64,000 nt of DNA. Source: Aspidapion aeneum (Eukaryota > Arthropoda > Insecta > Coleoptera > Brentidae). The translations under genes and the position numbers were made by a program. Shown here one piece after another: positions 4,766 to 60,764 of the stretch (its first letter is position 1; each line of letters starts with the position of its first letter). Below the pieces are notes generated by a model, which had not been told where the DNA came from, did not search any database, and saw only the letters and a list, made by a program, of their open reading frames with translations. The stretch is from contig OY755047.1 of assembly GCA_963576565.1 (NCBI GenBank), forward strand, positions 28,991,351 to 29,055,350, given 5' to 3'.

Positions 4766-4879
4766 GGGAGATAAAGAAAAACTGACCAGTTTTTGTGATA
4801 CTCAAATATCAAGAGAAGCTACAGGGTGAAAAGTGTATTTCAAACTCAAGCCATCTTCTTCAAATAACAGAATATTAGA

Positions 4880-6619
4880 AGTTTAGTACCCGTGAATAAA
4901 AAGACAAAAATTTTTTCGTGGCTAAGCGGGCATAGAAAGATTTTGTTTCTTTTGTACATATTTTTCCGTGGGCAGCTTGAAAGCTGTACACCCACGGAGG
5001 TTCAAGATCTAATGAACACCTATCAACCCACATAGCACAATCACGTGTTTAAACGTAAAAAAGGCGTGAGAAAAAAAAAACGTTAATTTTAAAATCTGCT
5101 AGAAAAAAACGTTTATTTCATATATGAAAACAAGCTTAATAGGTCATTCATTAACGTTATAAAAAATAACGTTGCTAAAAACTGCGTTTTAATAACGCCA
5201 GTATCAAATTAAAACAGCAGTATTTTTACGTTAGTTTCACGTGATTTTTTTCAACGTTAAAATCACATTAGATTCCCGCCTTTTCTACACGAATTTTAAA
5301 ACGCGACTTGCATTGCTTTTCTACCGAATATTTTTGAGATTTTACTAGCAGCAGCGCCACCTATTGTCGGGATTTTTCACTTTGACGAAATCTATCCGGC
5401 AGTGCTTTGGCCTCTAAACTCCAAAACCCTGTTAAGGAACTGATCCCTGATCCACGATCACGACACATCTGTTATTAACCTGATAAAGACGCATTAATAT
5501 TCTGTGAAAGTGGTTACTGTTAAAAAATCTTGTTTAGCTTTTAAAAAAAACATAATGTATATAGATAGATATATAGATATCTTGTCTAGCCTTGAGCGCC
5601 ATCTTTAAAATTGTCTTGAAGTGTTGTAGTCTTAAACTAGTGAACTTTTATAACTTCCTTTCGCGTCTCTTTTAAGTTTTTTTTTTATTTATTTATTTAT
5701 ACTGGGACTTTCCATCCAATCAGGATCAATCAAGTCTCTTTTAAGTTAAAAAAATGTTATTAAAAAAACGTGACTAAAAAAGACGCAGAAAGTTAGTAGG
5801 ATTGAGAAGTCTTAATCTAGTGGCGTTTTAGAACATGTTGTGGAGGACTTTTCAAGTGTGAATTTGGCACATGAAAATAACGAGGGTAAAAATCACGTTA
5901 TATACACAGCACCAGAAACTTCAGCAAAAAGTACATTTTTATAGCATGATTTCTCCTTGTTTTTAAGTTATCTTTAAGCATGTAGATTTAACAAAATAAA
6001 TATTACATGGTATGCGGATGTTTTCAAGTAAAAAAAAAACTTTGTTATTTTTGTTCACGTTAATTTAACGTTGATGGTACATTTTTATACCATGATTTCT
6101 CCTTGGTTTTAAGTTATCTTTAAGCATGTAGATTTAACAAAATAAATATTACATGGTATGCGGATGTTTTCAAGTAAAAAAAAAACTTTGTTAATTTTGT
6201 TCACGTTAATTTAACGTTGATGTGATTTTTGTGCTATGTGGGAAGTGTTGACAGTTAACTGGTCAATGTGACACTTTTGTAAAGCTACACAGAGGGTATA
6301 TGAATCTCATCCTACGATGTTGGTAAGAGAAATAAAGCCTGCGATGCTGTTCGCTTTCACTTAGTGGCGACATCTACATACAAAAGAAACTACCAGAGTA
6401 AAAATAAAAGCAGGCAGATGAAACGAAAAACAGTACTCATGACCGTGGCATAATTTAACCCTCAGGTCAGGTCAATGCATTTTGCTTTTTTTCCGCCTTC
6501 GCAACGTTTTATATCTAACAGGTGATCCGTGGTTTTATGTCGAGTCAGTGGAGCGTGAGCCAAAAATACTACAAACATGAAATTTAGTACTCGTGAATAA
6601 AAAGACAAACATTTTTTGT
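4880..6619 (-). mobile_element. Hammerhead-repeat copy A, interrupted and lacking the ribozyme core
   Basis: The minus-strand unit runs from 6619 to 6243 and from 5026 to 4880; 5027-6242 is a later insertion. Both ends carry the same 35-40 bp (TTTAGTACYCGTGAATAAAA then ACAAA), so slightly more than one unit (about 490 bp) was inserted. Near 6255-6265 the sequence jumps from the stem III side directly to the upstream flank, removing about 36 nt that hold the hammerhead core. Confidence 0.75.
5027..6242. mobile_element. 1.2 kb inverted-repeat transposon inside hammerhead-repeat copy A
   Basis: It starts CCCACATAGCACAA and ends GTGCTATGTGGG, a 12-bp perfect terminal inverted repeat, and cleanly splits a sequence that is continuous in other copies (CCTATCAAGTGTTG). 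AA occurs on both sides, suggesting a 2-bp duplication. It contains no long ORF, has many AACGTT/AACGTTA motifs, and has a 146-bp tandem duplication (5931-6076, 6077-6222). Confidence 0.7.
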
Positions 6620-6628
6620 ATTGTATTT

Positions 6629-6737
6629 GTATAGATCTTGGACCCCTGTGGGTATAGAGCTTTCGAGGTGCCCACGGAAAAATACAAAAGAAACAAAATC
6701 TTTCTATGCCCGCTTCACTACGAAAAATTTTTTTTCT
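6629..6737 (+). mobile_element. Hammerhead-repeat 3' fragment
   Basis: It holds ATAGATCTTGGACCCCTGTG, GCCCACGGAAAAATACAAA and CTTTCTATGCCCGCTT, the segment that follows the ribozyme in the unit, in plus orientation beside the minus-strand copy A. Confidence 0.7.
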
Positions 6738-6799
6738 TAACAGAATTTTTTTAAAAGTGTGCAATTCAAAATTTTATTTTGGAATGTAAGTTGCTTTTT

Positions 6800-7118
6800 T
6801 ACACAAATCAAAAAACCGTCACCATTAAATAATATTTATTTAAGTATGTAAGTATTAACCTTAATGATATGAACCTAAGGGTAATAAAAAGTCTAAGCCT
6901 ATGATAATTAAACACATTTAAATCAAAATTTAAATACTCCAATAATTTATAAGCCAGAGTGACGTAAAGACGTGGTTTTTTTCCAGGTCTTTTTTTTTAG
7001 TTTGTCCTGAATATTGCCAGTTAGTTTAGTAAACACAATTTTATATTTCAGATAACTAGGAATTAACATCAAATACGCTGCTCCTATGTCGGTTATGATC
7101 GGGCTGAAGCATTACGAC
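6800..7118. repeat. Dispersed repeat, second copy of 3780-4113
   Basis: The order and wording match 3780-4113, with a few indels. It lies between a hammerhead-repeat piece and mariner copy 2. Confidence 0.7.
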
Positions 7119-7262
7119 TGACAATTTACAAATTTAGTCAAAACGTAAAAGTTCTATTAAATAAAAAGTTTTAAAATTATAAAAGAGAAGTTATTTGTAA
7201 TAATTGCTAATATATTTAATTTTATTACGACCTAAACGATTAAGAATTTTACAGCTACCTAT

Positions 7263-24861: not shown

Positions 24862-25335
24862 ATCTTCTTGGCTAAGCGGGCATAGAAAGAATGTGTTTCT
24901 CTTGTATTTTTCTGTTGGCAGTTCGGAAGCTGGACACCTACGGGCGTCCAAGATCTAATGGACACCTATTAAGTGTTGACGGTTAACTGTTTCCTCCTTA
25001 AGGGACTCTTCAGACGGTATCATTAACGTGTTAATGGACGGTATATAAATCTCGTCTTGTGATATTGGTAAAAGAAATGAAAAATAATACCTGTGATACC
25101 GAATGCTTTCACACAAGTAGCGACATCTACCAAATGCAAAAGAAACTAACAGTAAAAACAAAAGGCAGGCACATGAAACAAAAAACAGTACCCATGACCG
25201 TGACATAATTTGTCCCTCAGGGCGGGTCAATGCATATTGAATTTTTGCTGCCTTCGGGATGTTTTATGTCAGGTCAGCGAAGTGCGGGCCAAAAATACTA
25301 CAAACGTATAAAATTTAGTACCCGTGAACTTAGAT
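24862..25335 (-). mobile_element. Hammerhead-repeat copy B
   Basis: A full unit on the minus strand, from the TTTAGTACCCGTGAA end to the GCTAAGCGGG end. The ribozyme region (24972-25019) keeps CTGAAGA, GAAA, GTC and AACACT, but has a stem II mismatch and has lost the 5' strand of stem I. Confidence 0.8.
24972..25019 (-). ncRNA. Degenerate hammerhead ribozyme, copy B
   Basis: Read on the minus strand: CTGAAGA, GTCC-CTTAA-GGAG (last pair broken), GAAA, CAGTTAACCG, TC, AACACT. The segment before CTGAAGA (ACCGT) no longer pairs with AACACT. Probably inactive. Confidence 0.55.
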
Positions 25336-27044: not shown

Positions 27045-27600
27045 CAACGATACCAGGTTTGTTTCTTTGGCATTTTTCCATGGGTTTCTCAAAAGCTTTG
27101 CACAGAAGCATCAATAATTTTTTTTGTGAGGATGAATTTTTTTAGGATATGAAAAAAACTTGTTGTAATACAGTCGGTACCATAAGTTACATAATTATAT
27201 TTTTTCTTGGCGGAGCGGATAATTACCCCCATTATAGAGGCCCTGTTTCGTCTTGAAGGCACTCATCAGCTTACTGCTTGGCCAATGAAACACTCTTGTT
27301 AAGGTTATTAGACGATTATGAATTATACTTCATGCTGCTTGTACGACAGGTGGATAGCCTTCAGTATTGATCAAATACAAGAAAACCTAAAAACAAAAAG
27401 CAAACAAACAAGAAACTGCGGTGTAAAGAGAAGATGCACCCCTGACCTTGACAACACATTATCGTTCAAGCCGTATGAACACCAATTCGTGCTTGTTCCG
27501 TCTTCGCAACGTCAGTGTGTCGGTCAGCGGAGTAATAACCCAATAATTTATGTTTGTTATCTTATAAACTGCGACTTATTTTATTCTGGAAAAAAAGTAT
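27045..27600 (-). mobile_element. Old or divergent hammerhead-repeat copy F
   Basis: The same order of landmarks as copy B is present but heavily diverged (TTTGTTTCTTTGG, CCATGGG, GTTTCGTC..., CCTTGACA..., GTCTTCGCAACG, CGGTCAGCGGAG). Its ribozyme region has the canonical CTGATGA core instead of CTGAAGA. Confidence 0.5.
27244..27270 (-). ncRNA. Hammerhead core with CTGATGA, copy F
   Basis: Minus strand: GCTGATGA, GTGCCTTCAAGAC as an imperfect stem II, then GAAAC. Stems I and III cannot be drawn confidently, so it is a relic or a divergent subfamily. Confidence 0.4.
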
Positions 27601-29297: not shown

Positions 29298-29885
29298 TCA
29301 AAATTGTCCATTTACTTTGATGCCTATTTCTTCCCAATCTAAGCTTTTAAAAACATCTAGGGCCTGGTTAAATAATTTAGGGGATATTGTGTCACCCTGT
29401 CTGACACCTATTATTATTCGGATTGGCTTGGTTCCTTCGTGGATTTTGATTGATGTTGTTGCATCGCTATATATATTGGCTATTAAGTCTGTATGTCTGT
29501 GATCTATTCGGCTATTAATTAAAGATGCTTTTAGTGCCCAGTGCTCAATGCTATCGAAAGCTTTTTCGGAGTTTATAAACGCAATTTTCATGGTTAATAA
29601 GTGGTCAACTGTATTGAAACCTTTTCTAAAGCCTGCGTGTTCCTTTGATTGATATCCGTCAAATTTTGTATTTAGTCTATCTGTTAATATTTTCGTGAAT
29701 AGCTTATAAATTACATTGAGGAGTGTTATAGGTCGATAGTTTTTTAGTTCTGCTCTATCGCCTTTCTTGTGTAGAATAATGGTTATGGATTCTTTCCAGT
29801 TGTTTGGGATTATTTTTTCTTTTAGTATTTTATTCAAGAAAATATGGAGGGTATTAACTACAGTTTTACCATCGTACTTGAGCAT
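29298..29885 (-). pseudogene. RTE reverse transcriptase fragment, first half
   Basis: This 195-residue ORF has the RT motifs NYRPITLLNVIYKLFTKIL, EHAGFRKGFNTVDHL, the palm aspartate block NSEKAFDSIEH (first catalytic motif) and GVRQGDTISPKLFN. It ends at a TGA just before the second catalytic box. RTE elements copy their RNA into DNA at a nicked target. Confidence 0.8.
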
Positions 29886-29944
29886 TTCTGCCGTTACTCC
29901 ATCTTTTCCTTTTTCTTTATTTTCGCTTTGCTTATTTCAGGTTA

Positions 29945-30289: not shown

Positions 30290-31500
30290 GAGAACCGCAT
30301 ATTGATGATGCGAAATAAAAAAAGCCGCCATCTTTATAGTAGAGTAAATTTGTAGGGTATTTCAAGAAAAAGCTGTAAAAAGGGTATATTTTTTTATATT
30401 TGGCATGGCAGTAGCTAACATCAAAAGCTAAATTTTCAATCGAGGATCCCCTATTTTCCGGCATCAGAATCCAAGATGGCGGCTGCCAAAGTTAAGAAAA
30501 AAATGAATTCCCTGTTTTAAGAGAAATTAAATTAATTTTGATAAATCTGCTTTAAGTGGTCCCTACTCAATTCAAAAATGTAAAAAATACACCTGTCACT
30601 TTAAAACAAATTGGCGGCTATATTTTAAAAAAATCGTTCTTCTTCGATATTTTCTTTAATTTTTGCGCGATATTTATTTTGAATACCTCATATTAAAGCC
30701 ACTGACCGGCTCTTTAAGCCTACCGAGAAAAAATTATAAGTTTCTTAGCCGACACAAAGATGGCGCTTAATATGTCAAAAATAAAAGAGACATTTATAGC
30801 CTGTAGAACAAATTAAATTTTGACAAAAAAATTTTTTGGAGTTTGTCAATAGTAAGCCAAGTTCAGATAAAAAAGTTATTTTTTTGTTCTTGTTTGACAC
30901 AACTAGTATTGCCGTGTAATATATCGATTTATACTAAATAGAGGTCGCCGATTTTAAATATTTCATAATAAATGACACATGTCTATTATTAATCAAGATG
31001 GCGGCGTTTAAAATATAAAAACCACAGTATCTTCTTGGTTTGGTTATTTTTTCTACCAAAATATGTAGTTTTATATTACTCTTAATTAGTTTTAAATTAT
31101 AATGTGCAAAAAAGTTTAAAAAAAACATTTTTGTTTATTTTTTAGAAATTTAACAAAAAAATGGAAAAAACAAGACTTCTTAAACAAAACATAGATATTT
31201 TAAAAATGTCAAAAAAGTTGACATATGTCACGTATGGGGTGATTTGATTGAATTGACTATATATTACTTAATAGCTATCTCCGTTAATATTGATCTAACA
31301 GTAACGTTTAAATAAGCAAAGTTAAATAATTTTTCCTAAATCATCAGAATCTGACGTTAAAAATGACATGCGTCATGCACTTGTCAAACTATTGACATAT
31401 TGTTTATTTCTTTAAATAAATCACCCTGTATATATTTTTTTTAATTGAGGTTCCTTTTTCTGATTTTAAAAATATATAATATGTTGACATTTAGTCCAGC
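30290..31500. other. AT-rich stretch with several AAGATGGCGGC motifs
   Basis: GCCGCCATCTTTA (30324), AAGATGGCGGC (30472), AAAGATGGCGC (30758) and AAGATGGCGGC (30994) stand out; otherwise noncoding. Confidence 0.5.
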
Positions 31501-31506
31501 CGTTAT

Positions 31507-31990
31507 TGAAAATCAAGTCAGCGGAGCGTGAGCCAAAAATACTACAAATGTGAAGTTTAGTACCCGTGAATGACATAAAACGTTGCGAAGGCGGAAAAAA
31601 TGCAATATGCATTGACCCGACCTGAGGGACAAATTATGTCACGGTCATGAGTACTGTTTTTCGTTTCATCTGCCTGCTTTTATTTTTACTCTGGTAGTTT
31701 CTTTTGTATTTGGAGATGTCGCCACTTATGTGAAAGCAAACGGTATTGCAGGCTTTATTTCTCTTACCAACATCGTAAGATGAGATTCATATACCGTCTC
31801 TGTAGCTTTACAAAAGTGTCACATTGACCATGCAGTGTTCTGAAGAGTCCCTTAAGGACGAAACAGTTAACTATCAACACTTGATAGGTGTCCATTAGAT
31901 CTTGGACCCCCGTGGGTGTACAGCTTTCGAGCTGGCCCCGGAAAAATACAAGAGGAACAAAATCTTTTTATGCCCGCTTAGCCAAGAATT
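31507..31990 (+). mobile_element. Hammerhead-repeat copy C (best preserved ribozyme)
   Basis: A plus-strand unit from CAGCGGAGCGTGAGCC to CCCGCTTAGCCAAG and a T-rich end. It shares all blocks with copies B, D and E and holds a hammerhead at 31834-31881. Confidence 0.85.
31834..31881 (+). ncRNA. Type-I hammerhead ribozyme, copy C
   Basis: The elements in order are AGTGTT (stem I 5' strand), CTGAAGA (core CUGANGA), GTCC-CTTAA-GGAC (stem II, four perfect pairs), GAAA (core), CAGTTAACTA (short stem III), TC with predicted cleavage after C31875, then AACACT, which pairs perfectly with AGTGTT. All invariant core bases are present; only one stem III pair (C-A) is lost. Known family: small type-I hammerheads in metazoan retroelements. 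Confidence 0.8.
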
Positions 31991-32589
31991 TTTTTTTGTA
32001 TTTTTGAATATAAAGGAAGCTGTGGTAGAGGATATGCCACTGGTAATAATTAAAACAATAAACAATTGTTTTTTGATAACAGCTATTATTGTTTAAAACT
32101 GAAAGCATAATGAACGTATTAAGGAATAACGTAATTTTAGGTATTTGTCGAAGGATTCAGGGGATTTGGAGATCCGAATTTTTATCAGGAAAAAAACTAA
32201 AAAATAAGCATTCAATTTGTTTTAATTGCGCATTTCTCCACCTATGTCAGTGTGTACGTTTAAATTTTGAAAAAAGGTTTTAAAAAAATTTCTAGTGTAA
32301 TACTCAGTTTATTTTTTACTTAATTTTTAAGTTGTGAACATTGTGCCCGTGAATTAGTGAGATAAAATTACAACTGAAGATTCAATTTCTTACAAACAAT
32401 ATTAATTAGTTTATATTTGAAGGTGAGCAAACTCTCTTTTACACTAGTAGGCGTAGTAGTAGTAGGTATATCCCTCCCTCTGTACTTCGATTTGATGTCC
32501 AGTTATAATGTCGGCATATTAGGGTAGTAGGAGTAGTAGTGTGGGTAGGCTCTAGGCCAGGCGACTGGACAGACGAAGCGCCCTTTTCA

Positions 32590-33180
32590 CCAACCCCCGA
32601 GCATCCCCCTACTGCGTCCTTTCTTCGCTAAGGAATCTGCCCGTCTTCTGTACAAAGGCGAGAATATCCGGCCACCTCAGATTCAGAAGGTCCTCCGTCT
32701 CAAAGGCTTCCTCTTCAAATACCTCTCCTCTTGCCTCCTTATAGGTCTCCGAGGCCTCGTCTTTGGCCCAGCATCGCTCGCACGTCGCGTCGGTCTTCAC
32801 TCTCATTTTTGCCAGGAGTCCTTGTAGGACGCAGTGTCCGGTTGGGACTCCCACTATGGCTCCCACCTCTCTTCGTGTTCTACGGAGCAGCAAGTCCCTA
32901 CGTGACTTACTGTATCCTGTCACATACTCCTTCGCCTGTCTAGCGTTTCCTGTGTGGGTCCATTCCTTTTATATCTCTTTCTGGGCCCACGCTGTTAGGG
33001 CCGACTTCATTTGCCCTCTTGTGAGTCCCAGGAAAGGCTCTGGCCCGACGCCGACACATTTCTGCCGGAATCCACCCCTGGCGAGTTCGTCCGCTTTCTC
33101 GTTTTCTGGGACTCTCATGTGGCCTGGCACCCATACGAGCTTACTCAGGCCAACTCTTGAAGTGCATCTGCGCACTCCTT
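32590..33180 (-). pseudogene. I-like non-LTR retrotransposon fragment, RNase H and C-terminus
   Basis: Minus strand: KLVWVPGHMRVPENEKADEL is the end of an RNase H domain (W.PGH.....NE.AD.LA), then FLGLTRGQMKSALTAW; after a frameshift, GYSKSRRDLLLRRTRREVGA, GHCVLQGLLAKM and CERCWAKDEASET. The last resembles the C-x2-C...H zinc region at I/R1-type C-termini. GC-rich relative to the surroundings. Confidence 0.65.
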
Positions 33181-33611
33181 CATAGGGGTATAGTCAACCA
33201 CGGACAACGGTGTTTCGGAAAAAGGCATTTCCTTCCTCAGCGTGGCTTGCCTGACACAAAGTAGAACAAACTGACTACAAGATACAAGGTAAATCAAAAA
33301 GAATGAAAAAATAGGTGAAACCTATTTTTCATTCTATGAGTGAACGATAGCGAACCAAGGAAACTAAGTCCTTGGCGGGACGAAAAAGTCCACCGGTCTA
33401 TAAGGAAGAAAAACTTTTCGTCATAGTTCAACCAGACCATGCTATCACCGTCTCCACAATATCGGTTTGAAACCGAAAACAATGAGTTAACCAAGTATAA
33501 AAGGCAACTTCATAGGGGTATAGTCAACCACGGACACCTATGTTTCGGAAAAAGGCATTTCCTTCCTCAGCGTGGCTTGCCTGACACAAAGTAGAACAAA
33601 CTGACTACAAT
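33178..33611 (+). repeat. 105-bp direct repeats flanking a second SINE-like copy
   Basis: CTTCATAGGGGTATAGTCAA through AACAAACTGACTACAA occurs at 33178-33285 and 33507-33611, bracketing the 222-bp repeat seen at 12.3 kb. Confidence 0.65.
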
Positions 33612-36083: not shown

Positions 36084-36123
<40 letters not shown>

Positions 36124-36124
36124 T
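36069..36124. repeat. TA microsatellite
   Basis: (TA)n with one interruption. Confidence 0.9.
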
Positions 36125-36292
36125 TTAAATTAAAATATTTTATTAGTAACCTAAGTAATAGTCGTATAGTTCGTTTTAATAATATTGATTTTAAAAATGT
36201 TTCATAAAATAATGGATGTGTCTTTTTGAACTTGTGTTTTTTGTATGTTTGTTTTGATTAATGTAAGGTGATTTTGTGAATGTATGAATGTT

Positions 36293-36322
36293 CTGAAGAA
36301 GGTCTTTAGACCGAAACGTTAA
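36293..36322 (+). ncRNA. Hammerhead-like motif CTGAAGA-stem-GAAAC
   Basis: CTGAAGA, A, GGTC-TTTA-GACC (perfect stem), GAAACGTT. This is the pattern of Penelope-type hammerheads with a minimal stem III; stem I is not evident. Confidence 0.35.
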
Positions 36323-36417
36323 TAAATGTAAATTAAAAGTTGCTAGTTGATTAATGAACCACATTCCCAAGAAACCTACAAACCTAAAAAATATATGGTT
36401 CAACAAAAAAGAAAATC

Positions 36418-36418
<1 letters not shown>

Positions 36419-36488
<70 letters not shown>

Positions 36489-39426: not shown

Positions 39427-46935
<7,509 letters not shown>

Positions 46936-51335: not shown

Positions 51336-60764
<9,429 letters not shown>

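Follow-up and report, generated by a model that had tools for sequence, protein, structure and literature searches.

What kind of element is the hammerhead-bearing repeat at 31.5 kb in the window, and which enzyme moves it? The window is the whole stretch of DNA analysed, 64 kb at C10:28991351-29055350 of a genome of 1.286 Gb (~1.29 Gb) in 149 contigs, by impression probably that of an arthropod. An earlier note on this DNA had read the repeat as a non-autonomous retroelement carrying a hammerhead ribozyme. Short non-coding units with a type I hammerhead, in tandem or dispersed, are retrozymes, and we class the repeat as one. The question of the enzyme that moves animal retrozymes has been left open in print, where Penelope-like elements (PLEs) are named as a strong or likely candidate (PMC7229834, PMC7761336) and retrozymes are said to rely possibly on PLEs (PMC8969392).

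Copies of the repeat in the window

Positions within the repeat are given in unit coordinates, in which u1 is the first base past the predicted cleavage site and the reference unit is 492 bp. Six places in the window had been assigned to one repeat family, and BLAST of the named unit, that at 31.5 kb, against the window recovered relatives at all six, with 76-93% identity to the 31.5-kb copy over the aligned pieces. The mapped pieces and their hammerheads are as follows.

31513-32005, the named copy as a whole (BLAST and unit-coordinate map)
31513..31571, minus strand, outer piece of the named copy, u131-189 (59 bp), inverted relative to the usual family order (map and sequence)
31572..32005, plus strand, named copy, main body, u188-492 followed by u1-130, the right end being a short tail
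31834..31881, plus strand, type I hammerhead of the named copy, predicted cut after C31875, one stem III mismatch
57114..57166, minus strand, outer tail piece of the 57-kb copy, inverted (unit-coordinate map)
57167..57778, plus strand, 57-kb copy, u41-490 then u1-167, long tail on the right side
57573-57620, plus strand, hammerhead of the 57-kb copy, T16.1 and C17 altered (alignment)
39825..40439, plus strand, partial dimer, subfamily-B-like (unit-coordinate map)
40286-40333, plus strand, hammerhead of the 39.8-kb copy, C3 to T, pairing otherwise good (alignment)
24865..25328, minus strand, copy with the core kept and stem I lost (map and motif)
4878..5026, minus strand, split copy, left part, u6-150 (unit-coordinate map)
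6260..6617, minus strand, split copy, second part, u112-447 (unit-coordinate map)
6632..6738, plus strand, split copy, outer tail u21-127, inverted (unit-coordinate map)
27058..27299, minus strand, degenerate fragments of the repeat (unit-coordinate map)

Relatives lie at all six sites for which a common block order had been described, but the piece at 31513-31571 is inverted, the 27.3-kb copy is degenerate and the 4.9-6.6-kb copy is split. A 9-bp TAACAGAAT lies a few bases or less from each outer end of this split copy (4878-6738). The DNA that interrupts it (5027-6259) has inverted ends, CCCACATAGCAC and GTGCTATGTGGG, contains a tandem pair of 146 bp and looks like a DNA transposon. A ~412-bp segment at 31109-31511, which is 88% identical to part of locus L047, adjoins the start of the named copy at 31513. 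No ORF of at least 150 aa overlapped any of the six window copies of the repeat.

The hammerhead motif and the family in the genome

The core of a type I hammerhead reads CUGANGA ... GAAA ... UH and is framed by three stems, of which stem I is open. The best copies of the repeat carry AGTGTT-CTGARGA-GTCC-loop-GGAC-GAAA-CNGTTAACTGTC, then AACACT, a motif that, judged by its letters, fits a type I hammerhead in core and stems and would be expected to cleave itself after the predicted C. The stem III sequence CAGTTAACTG is a 10-bp palindrome, so a longer stem III could be common to two units, and cleavage in dimeric form is considered possible for PLE hammerheads in tandem (PMC7761336). Within the window, the motif string occurs in full or as a close variant at 31840, 40292, 57579 and 25013 (minus strand), which agrees with the four motif-keeping copies of the earlier note, but an intact core and stem I are found together only in the copy at 31.5 kb. 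In that copy stems I and II are also kept and stem III has one mismatch; C3 is changed to T at 40.3 kb, T16.1 is lost and A stands at position 17 at 57.6 kb, stem I is lost at 25.0 kb, most of the ribozyme is missing at 6.2 kb, and the 27.3-kb copy is degenerate. Across 59 aligned distinct copies (63 BLAST rows minus duplicates and edge cases), the core was complete in 34, one of them being the 25.0-kb window copy that lacks stem I, and stems I-III were paired in 90-96%. Compensatory stem changes were all but absent, with 1 of 1702 cells changed on both sides, the copies being too uniform for a covariation signal.

The 35-nt hammerhead core, allowing at most two mismatches, matched the genome 15,972 times (7936 forward and 8036 reverse) and the reversed pattern used as control 0 times, hence the abundance of the family is above chance. 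A search of the genome with the unit, proposed in the earlier note, likewise returned many relatives, at least 175 matches from the best 40 of 3906 candidates scored. Units are about 490-521 bp long, with an array period of about 490 bp, and copies occur as singles, partial dimers and head-to-tail arrays. Most of the 100 core places listed belong to subfamily B (CTGAGGA...CATAA), and the C11 array (L009) belongs to subfamily A. In a comparison of one unit of each subfamily (B from L035), the ribozyme was identical at 44/48 positions and the segment u431-167, which holds the hammerhead and the downstream block, at 194/229, compared with 163/263 in the remainder, u168-430 (Fisher P 1.8e-8 against u431-167). 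This conserved block contains the ribozyme, two hairpins just 3' of it and the insertion-end zone.

The covariance-model check gave no Rfam match at the gathering threshold in the window or in 13 fetched loci, an outcome that the earlier note had named as refuting its reading; for RF00163 and RF00008 the best scores were 26.9 against a gathering value of 48.5 and 24.7 against 34 bits. Permissive runs placed RF00008 or RF00163 on the motif at 21-27 bits (E 0.05 to 2). In the window these were a 26.9-bit match (E 0.18), which covers 31813-31869 in the named copy, and a 21.1-bit match (E 2), in a sub-threshold list that also contains chance families scoring similarly; loci L027 and L035 gave 26.9, 24.7 and 21.0 bits. 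For the PLE-type hammerheads of L044, L037 and L049, Rfam returned no hammerhead match at E up to 1. We did not take the missing match as a refutation, because sub-threshold matches fall on the motif, core and stems fit, and the ribozyme is better conserved between the compared A and B units than u168-430. A loose structural hammerhead scan matched the window once, at 40292, and a set of 60 random windows three times in all; because it finds similar sites in random windows the scan alone is weak evidence. Folding showed both hairpins 3' of the ribozyme (z -3.0 and z -1.4 in two folds), and the full hammerhead was absent from the minimum-energy folds of the repeat.

Arrays differed in the state of the core. 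In the L012 array 0 of 8 distinct rows had an intact core, 7 having G12 changed to C, and in the C8 array (L010/L011) again 0 of 8, 6 having G12 changed to A; two more L010 rows lie outside the C8 array, one of them intact, and all 7 distinct rows of the C11 array were intact. Dead cores in all distinct rows of the L012 and C8 arrays suggest that arrays can grow without ribozyme action, and, given such large arrays, expansion at the DNA level probably happens. The same arrays would suit a conventional satellite or dispersed repeat that spreads through DNA recombination and carries a fossil ribozyme with no present role. We regard this as very improbable, because the ribozyme and its downstream block are conserved above the rest of the unit, and because the copies are dispersed, with target duplications in some, two zones of ends and a strict orientation, as described below.

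Locus L014 contains, at 4868-7143, three consecutive units with an insert of ~390-440 bp in stem-loop II of the hammerhead. The inserts have TTAA on both sides and are 88-99% alike, and the insert-bearing unit has been multiplied.

Insertion anatomy and Penelope-like elements

Insert ends fell mainly in two zones after the cleavage site, u107-137 (36 ends) and u142-169 (28 ends), which together hold 64 of 70, with 6 in neither; the zone limits were chosen after seeing the data, and end positions are aligner estimates that may overrun into the flank. By eye, long-tail ends cluster at a CACGTTTGTA stretch, about u155-159. The left end of the named copy, on the 31513 side, lies outside both zones. 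Many inserts consist of two head-to-head parts with a tail at either outer end, and orientation is strict: among the 100 core places listed, all exact matches in C1:0.35-8.40 Mb from one end of C1, opposite-strand neighbours within 1 kb were 12 (-,+) and 0 (+,-), with tails outward in 12/12, and same-strand neighbours within 1 kb numbered 16.

Target duplications were found at L017 (13 bp), L012 (12 bp), L018 (12 bp) and the split copy at window 4878-6738 (9 bp), and by eye at C2:21787 (13 bp) and C4:11234 (10 bp). A shared flank stretch of at least 12 bp was present in 3 of 23 elements vs 0 of 506 swapped flank pairs, and most flanks of the 23 were without a clear duplication. Dispersed and tandem units, duplications at some copies, ends mostly in two zones and the lack of an ORF of 150 aa or more in the window copies thus support the earlier reading of a non-autonomous hammerhead retroelement, to which the PLE-like insertion anatomy is an addition. 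All six inserts with a 9-13-bp duplication and tails at both ends had one short and one long tail (L024, with a 9-bp A-rich shared stretch and a tail at one end only, was left out of the six). This asymmetry was seen in 14 of 18 classed pairs (one-sided P 0.015). Visual inspection decided the class of C8:27223 and of four C1 pairs, C1:2813 was counted as long/long with one end invisible, and the 18 exclude L010, L020, L026 and window 31.5 kb, in each of which an end falls in neither zone. Among pairs fetched after the idea had been noted it was seen in 5 of 8 (P 0.36), and a forecast of >75%, written beforehand, was not reached, with 3 of 4 pairs. A rule of one short and one long tail is suggestive, and as a firm rule it was given up on the counts of 14/18 overall and 5/8 in later pairs.

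PLEs are present in the same genome. The GIY-YIG domain (PF01541) gave at least 91 genome matches from the best 150 of 633 candidates scored, and L049 has a 627-codon open frame with RVT_1 and GIY-YIG matches above the cut-off in its C-terminal 581 residues. Of the 22 GIY-YIG loci fetched, 14 contained a minimal hammerhead of the form CTGAAGA-A-GGTC...GACC-GAAA-CGTC or a variant of it, and one PLE-type hammerhead core matched the genome 530 times and its control 0 times. Among 100 exact places listed for this core, (-,+) and (+,-) neighbours numbered 8 vs 0 at up to 1.5 kb, 11 vs 0 at up to 3 kb and 11 vs 1 at up to 5 kb. One PLE type ends, by eye, ~70 or ~108 nt past the cut, at sites some 37 nt apart, and both arms of the L049 PLE end ~58 nt past it, with equal tails. 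An equal cut-to-end distance in PLEs and retrozymes was considered and proved wrong, these values standing against 107-169 nt. The two hammerheads also differ in build: the repeat has GTCC/GGAC in stem II and the 10-bp palindrome as stem III, whereas in the PLEs of the genome stem III is minimal and of ACGT type, and stem II is preceded by an additional A. The window itself holds a PLE remnant.

36122..36457, plus strand, autonomous-type PLE 3' end, 93-96% identical to PLE loci L044 and L048
36293..36320, plus strand, minimal PLE-type hammerhead core in that remnant (motif)

Hammerhead, tandem and inverted layout, and tail are all like those of a PLE pseudo-LTR, or pLTR (PMC3846280), and the unit might accordingly be the pLTR of an autonomous PLE family, the copies being pLTR fragments and not an independent retrozyme. 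A flanked PLE could have been missed, as 20 of the 22 GIY-YIG loci were fetched with only ~1.5 kb per flank. However, BLAST found the unit in only one of the 22, L035 (a 20-locus run added chance-level extras), where a three-unit subfamily-B array (193-1451) abuts with its long tail the GIY-YIG portion of an oppositely oriented PLE; this is a retrozyme insertion within or next to a PLE, and L035 as an autonomous PLE with the unit as pLTR was ruled out by that orientation. Moreover, the mapped arrays run unit after unit, and the repeat core is ~30x commoner than the PLE core (15,972 vs 530, for patterns that differ in length and for one PLE type). Hence we consider the pLTR origin rather unlikely.

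Another candidate is a SINE-like element that a LINE mobilises and whose 5' inversions come from twin priming, and another RT remnant, with an RVT_1 match, lies in the window at 29298-29936. Twin priming yields inverted 5' pieces as well, but it puts the RNA 3' end on one side only, and many inserts of the repeat have tails at both ends. Since the PLEs of the genome, too, obey the same orientation rule as the repeat, movement by a LINE is improbable.

Comparison with known elements and a proposed cycle

The ends, orientation and duplications of the repeat resemble published marks of PLE insertion. Like the repeat, endonuclease PLEs have head-to-head inverted ends with an optional 30-40-bp tail, ends shortly downstream of the hammerhead and short target duplications, the latter being clear in six inserts of the repeat (PMC3846280, PMC11167929). 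In rotifers, PLEs have head-to-head inverted pLTRs with 8-10-bp duplications and a 31-bp tail on one inverted pLTR, and a host gene has been inserted in trans between such pLTRs; the same source, in the sections drawn on here, argues that PLE enzymes are co-adapted with cis sequences, cross-mobilisation between PLE families not being seen (PMC3846280). The enzyme of a lizard PLE cuts and extends both target strands and initiates internally on the RNA, mostly 111-118 nt into the ORF (hammerhead cleavage at 26), and two adjacent start sites bound the 30-40-bp tail (PMC11167929). The unit is without an RT/GIY-YIG ORF, unlike an autonomous PLE, and its mapped arrays run unit upon unit.

Metazoan retrozymes share with the repeat a type I hammerhead, tandem copies, low GC and coexisting PLEs, and linear and circular monomer RNAs would be expected of it as of other retrozymes; their reported unit of 170-400 nt, an observed range and not a definition, compares with about 490-521 bp here, and the insertion ends and orientation of the repeat are without counterpart in the parts of that retrozyme description considered here (PMC7229834). 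The pDo500 satellite of Dolichopoda cave crickets is similar to the repeat in its 463-505-bp unit with a 49-bp hammerhead, and its ribozyme is likewise conserved above the remaining unit; it was published as satellite DNA and is likened to the repeat by description only (PMC2837043). We recognised no report of a PLE-like insertion anatomy for retrozymes in the open-access papers searched, subscription papers lying mostly outside this coverage. The family is thus a new retrozyme family with genomic evidence of PLE-type mobilisation. Its insertion anatomy is the new part; that PLEs move animal retrozymes is a published, unproven idea, which is supported by the resemblance of the ends, the orientation and the duplications of six inserts to PLE marks.

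In our view the repeat is probably a metazoan retrozyme that depends for its movement on a PLE of the same genome, whose RT/GIY-YIG endonuclease would act in trans. In the cycle that we propose, a multimeric transcript of the repeat would be cut by the hammerhead into unit or few-unit RNA, possibly circular, and a PLE protein would recognise this RNA by the hammerhead region and the hairpins directly 3' of it. The protein would then cut both strands of AT-rich DNA and start reverse transcription in either zone, ~107-137 or 142-169 nt past the cut; priming on both target strands would produce head-to-head inserts with tails outward and duplications of ~9-13 bp. The insert ends are here read as priming sites, although RNA 3' ends would look alike in DNA. 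The parts of the lizard study used here report that ribozyme mutants still inserted in vitro and that RNA ends at the cleavage site were not found, so cleavage may be unnecessary (PMC11167929).

Some observations speak against mobilisation by PLEs. Among the 22 GIY-YIG loci the unit was linked to a PLE only in L035, in opposite orientation, and recognition by a PLE protein is therefore argued from anatomy; the cut-to-end distances also differ between PLEs (~58/70/108 nt) and retrozymes (107-169 nt). Our confidence was lowered by these distances, by the equal tails of L049 and by the start sites of the lizard PLE, which were alike on both strands in the part of that work considered (PMC11167929). 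The equal tails and the lizard result also weaken a more specific proposal, which we regard as doubtful, namely that animal retrozymes are the SINEs of PLEs and that a PLE enzyme, working on a single RNA, uses two adjacent start sites once each, one per cut target strand. If it were true, a complete insert would be head-to-head with one short and one long tail, and thousands of natural retrozyme insertions would record the start-site rule of PLEs. More generally, a retrozyme family and PLEs of one genome with a common unusual insertion anatomy narrow the question of the enzyme to an RNA and a protein, and the insertion of PLEs, which is poorly understood, would be documented on a large natural scale by the thousands of short copies.

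Two further repeats in the window were observed beside this family. A ~144-bp segment with a long hairpin is repeated at 55224-55367 and 55438-55582, and sub-threshold rli38 matches at these segments are most likely due to chance. On the minus strand, two 103-bp blocks at 33178-33280 and 33508-33610 are 97% alike and lie 330 bp apart. Rfam gave no match on this tandem and folding of the block showed no special stability (z -0.2). The motif of the blocks reads GCCACG-CTGAGGA-A-GGAAA...TTTCC-GAAA-CACCGTTGTC-CGTGGT, a related copy of the block is present in L043, and the tandem is possibly a second retrozyme, of 330 bp.
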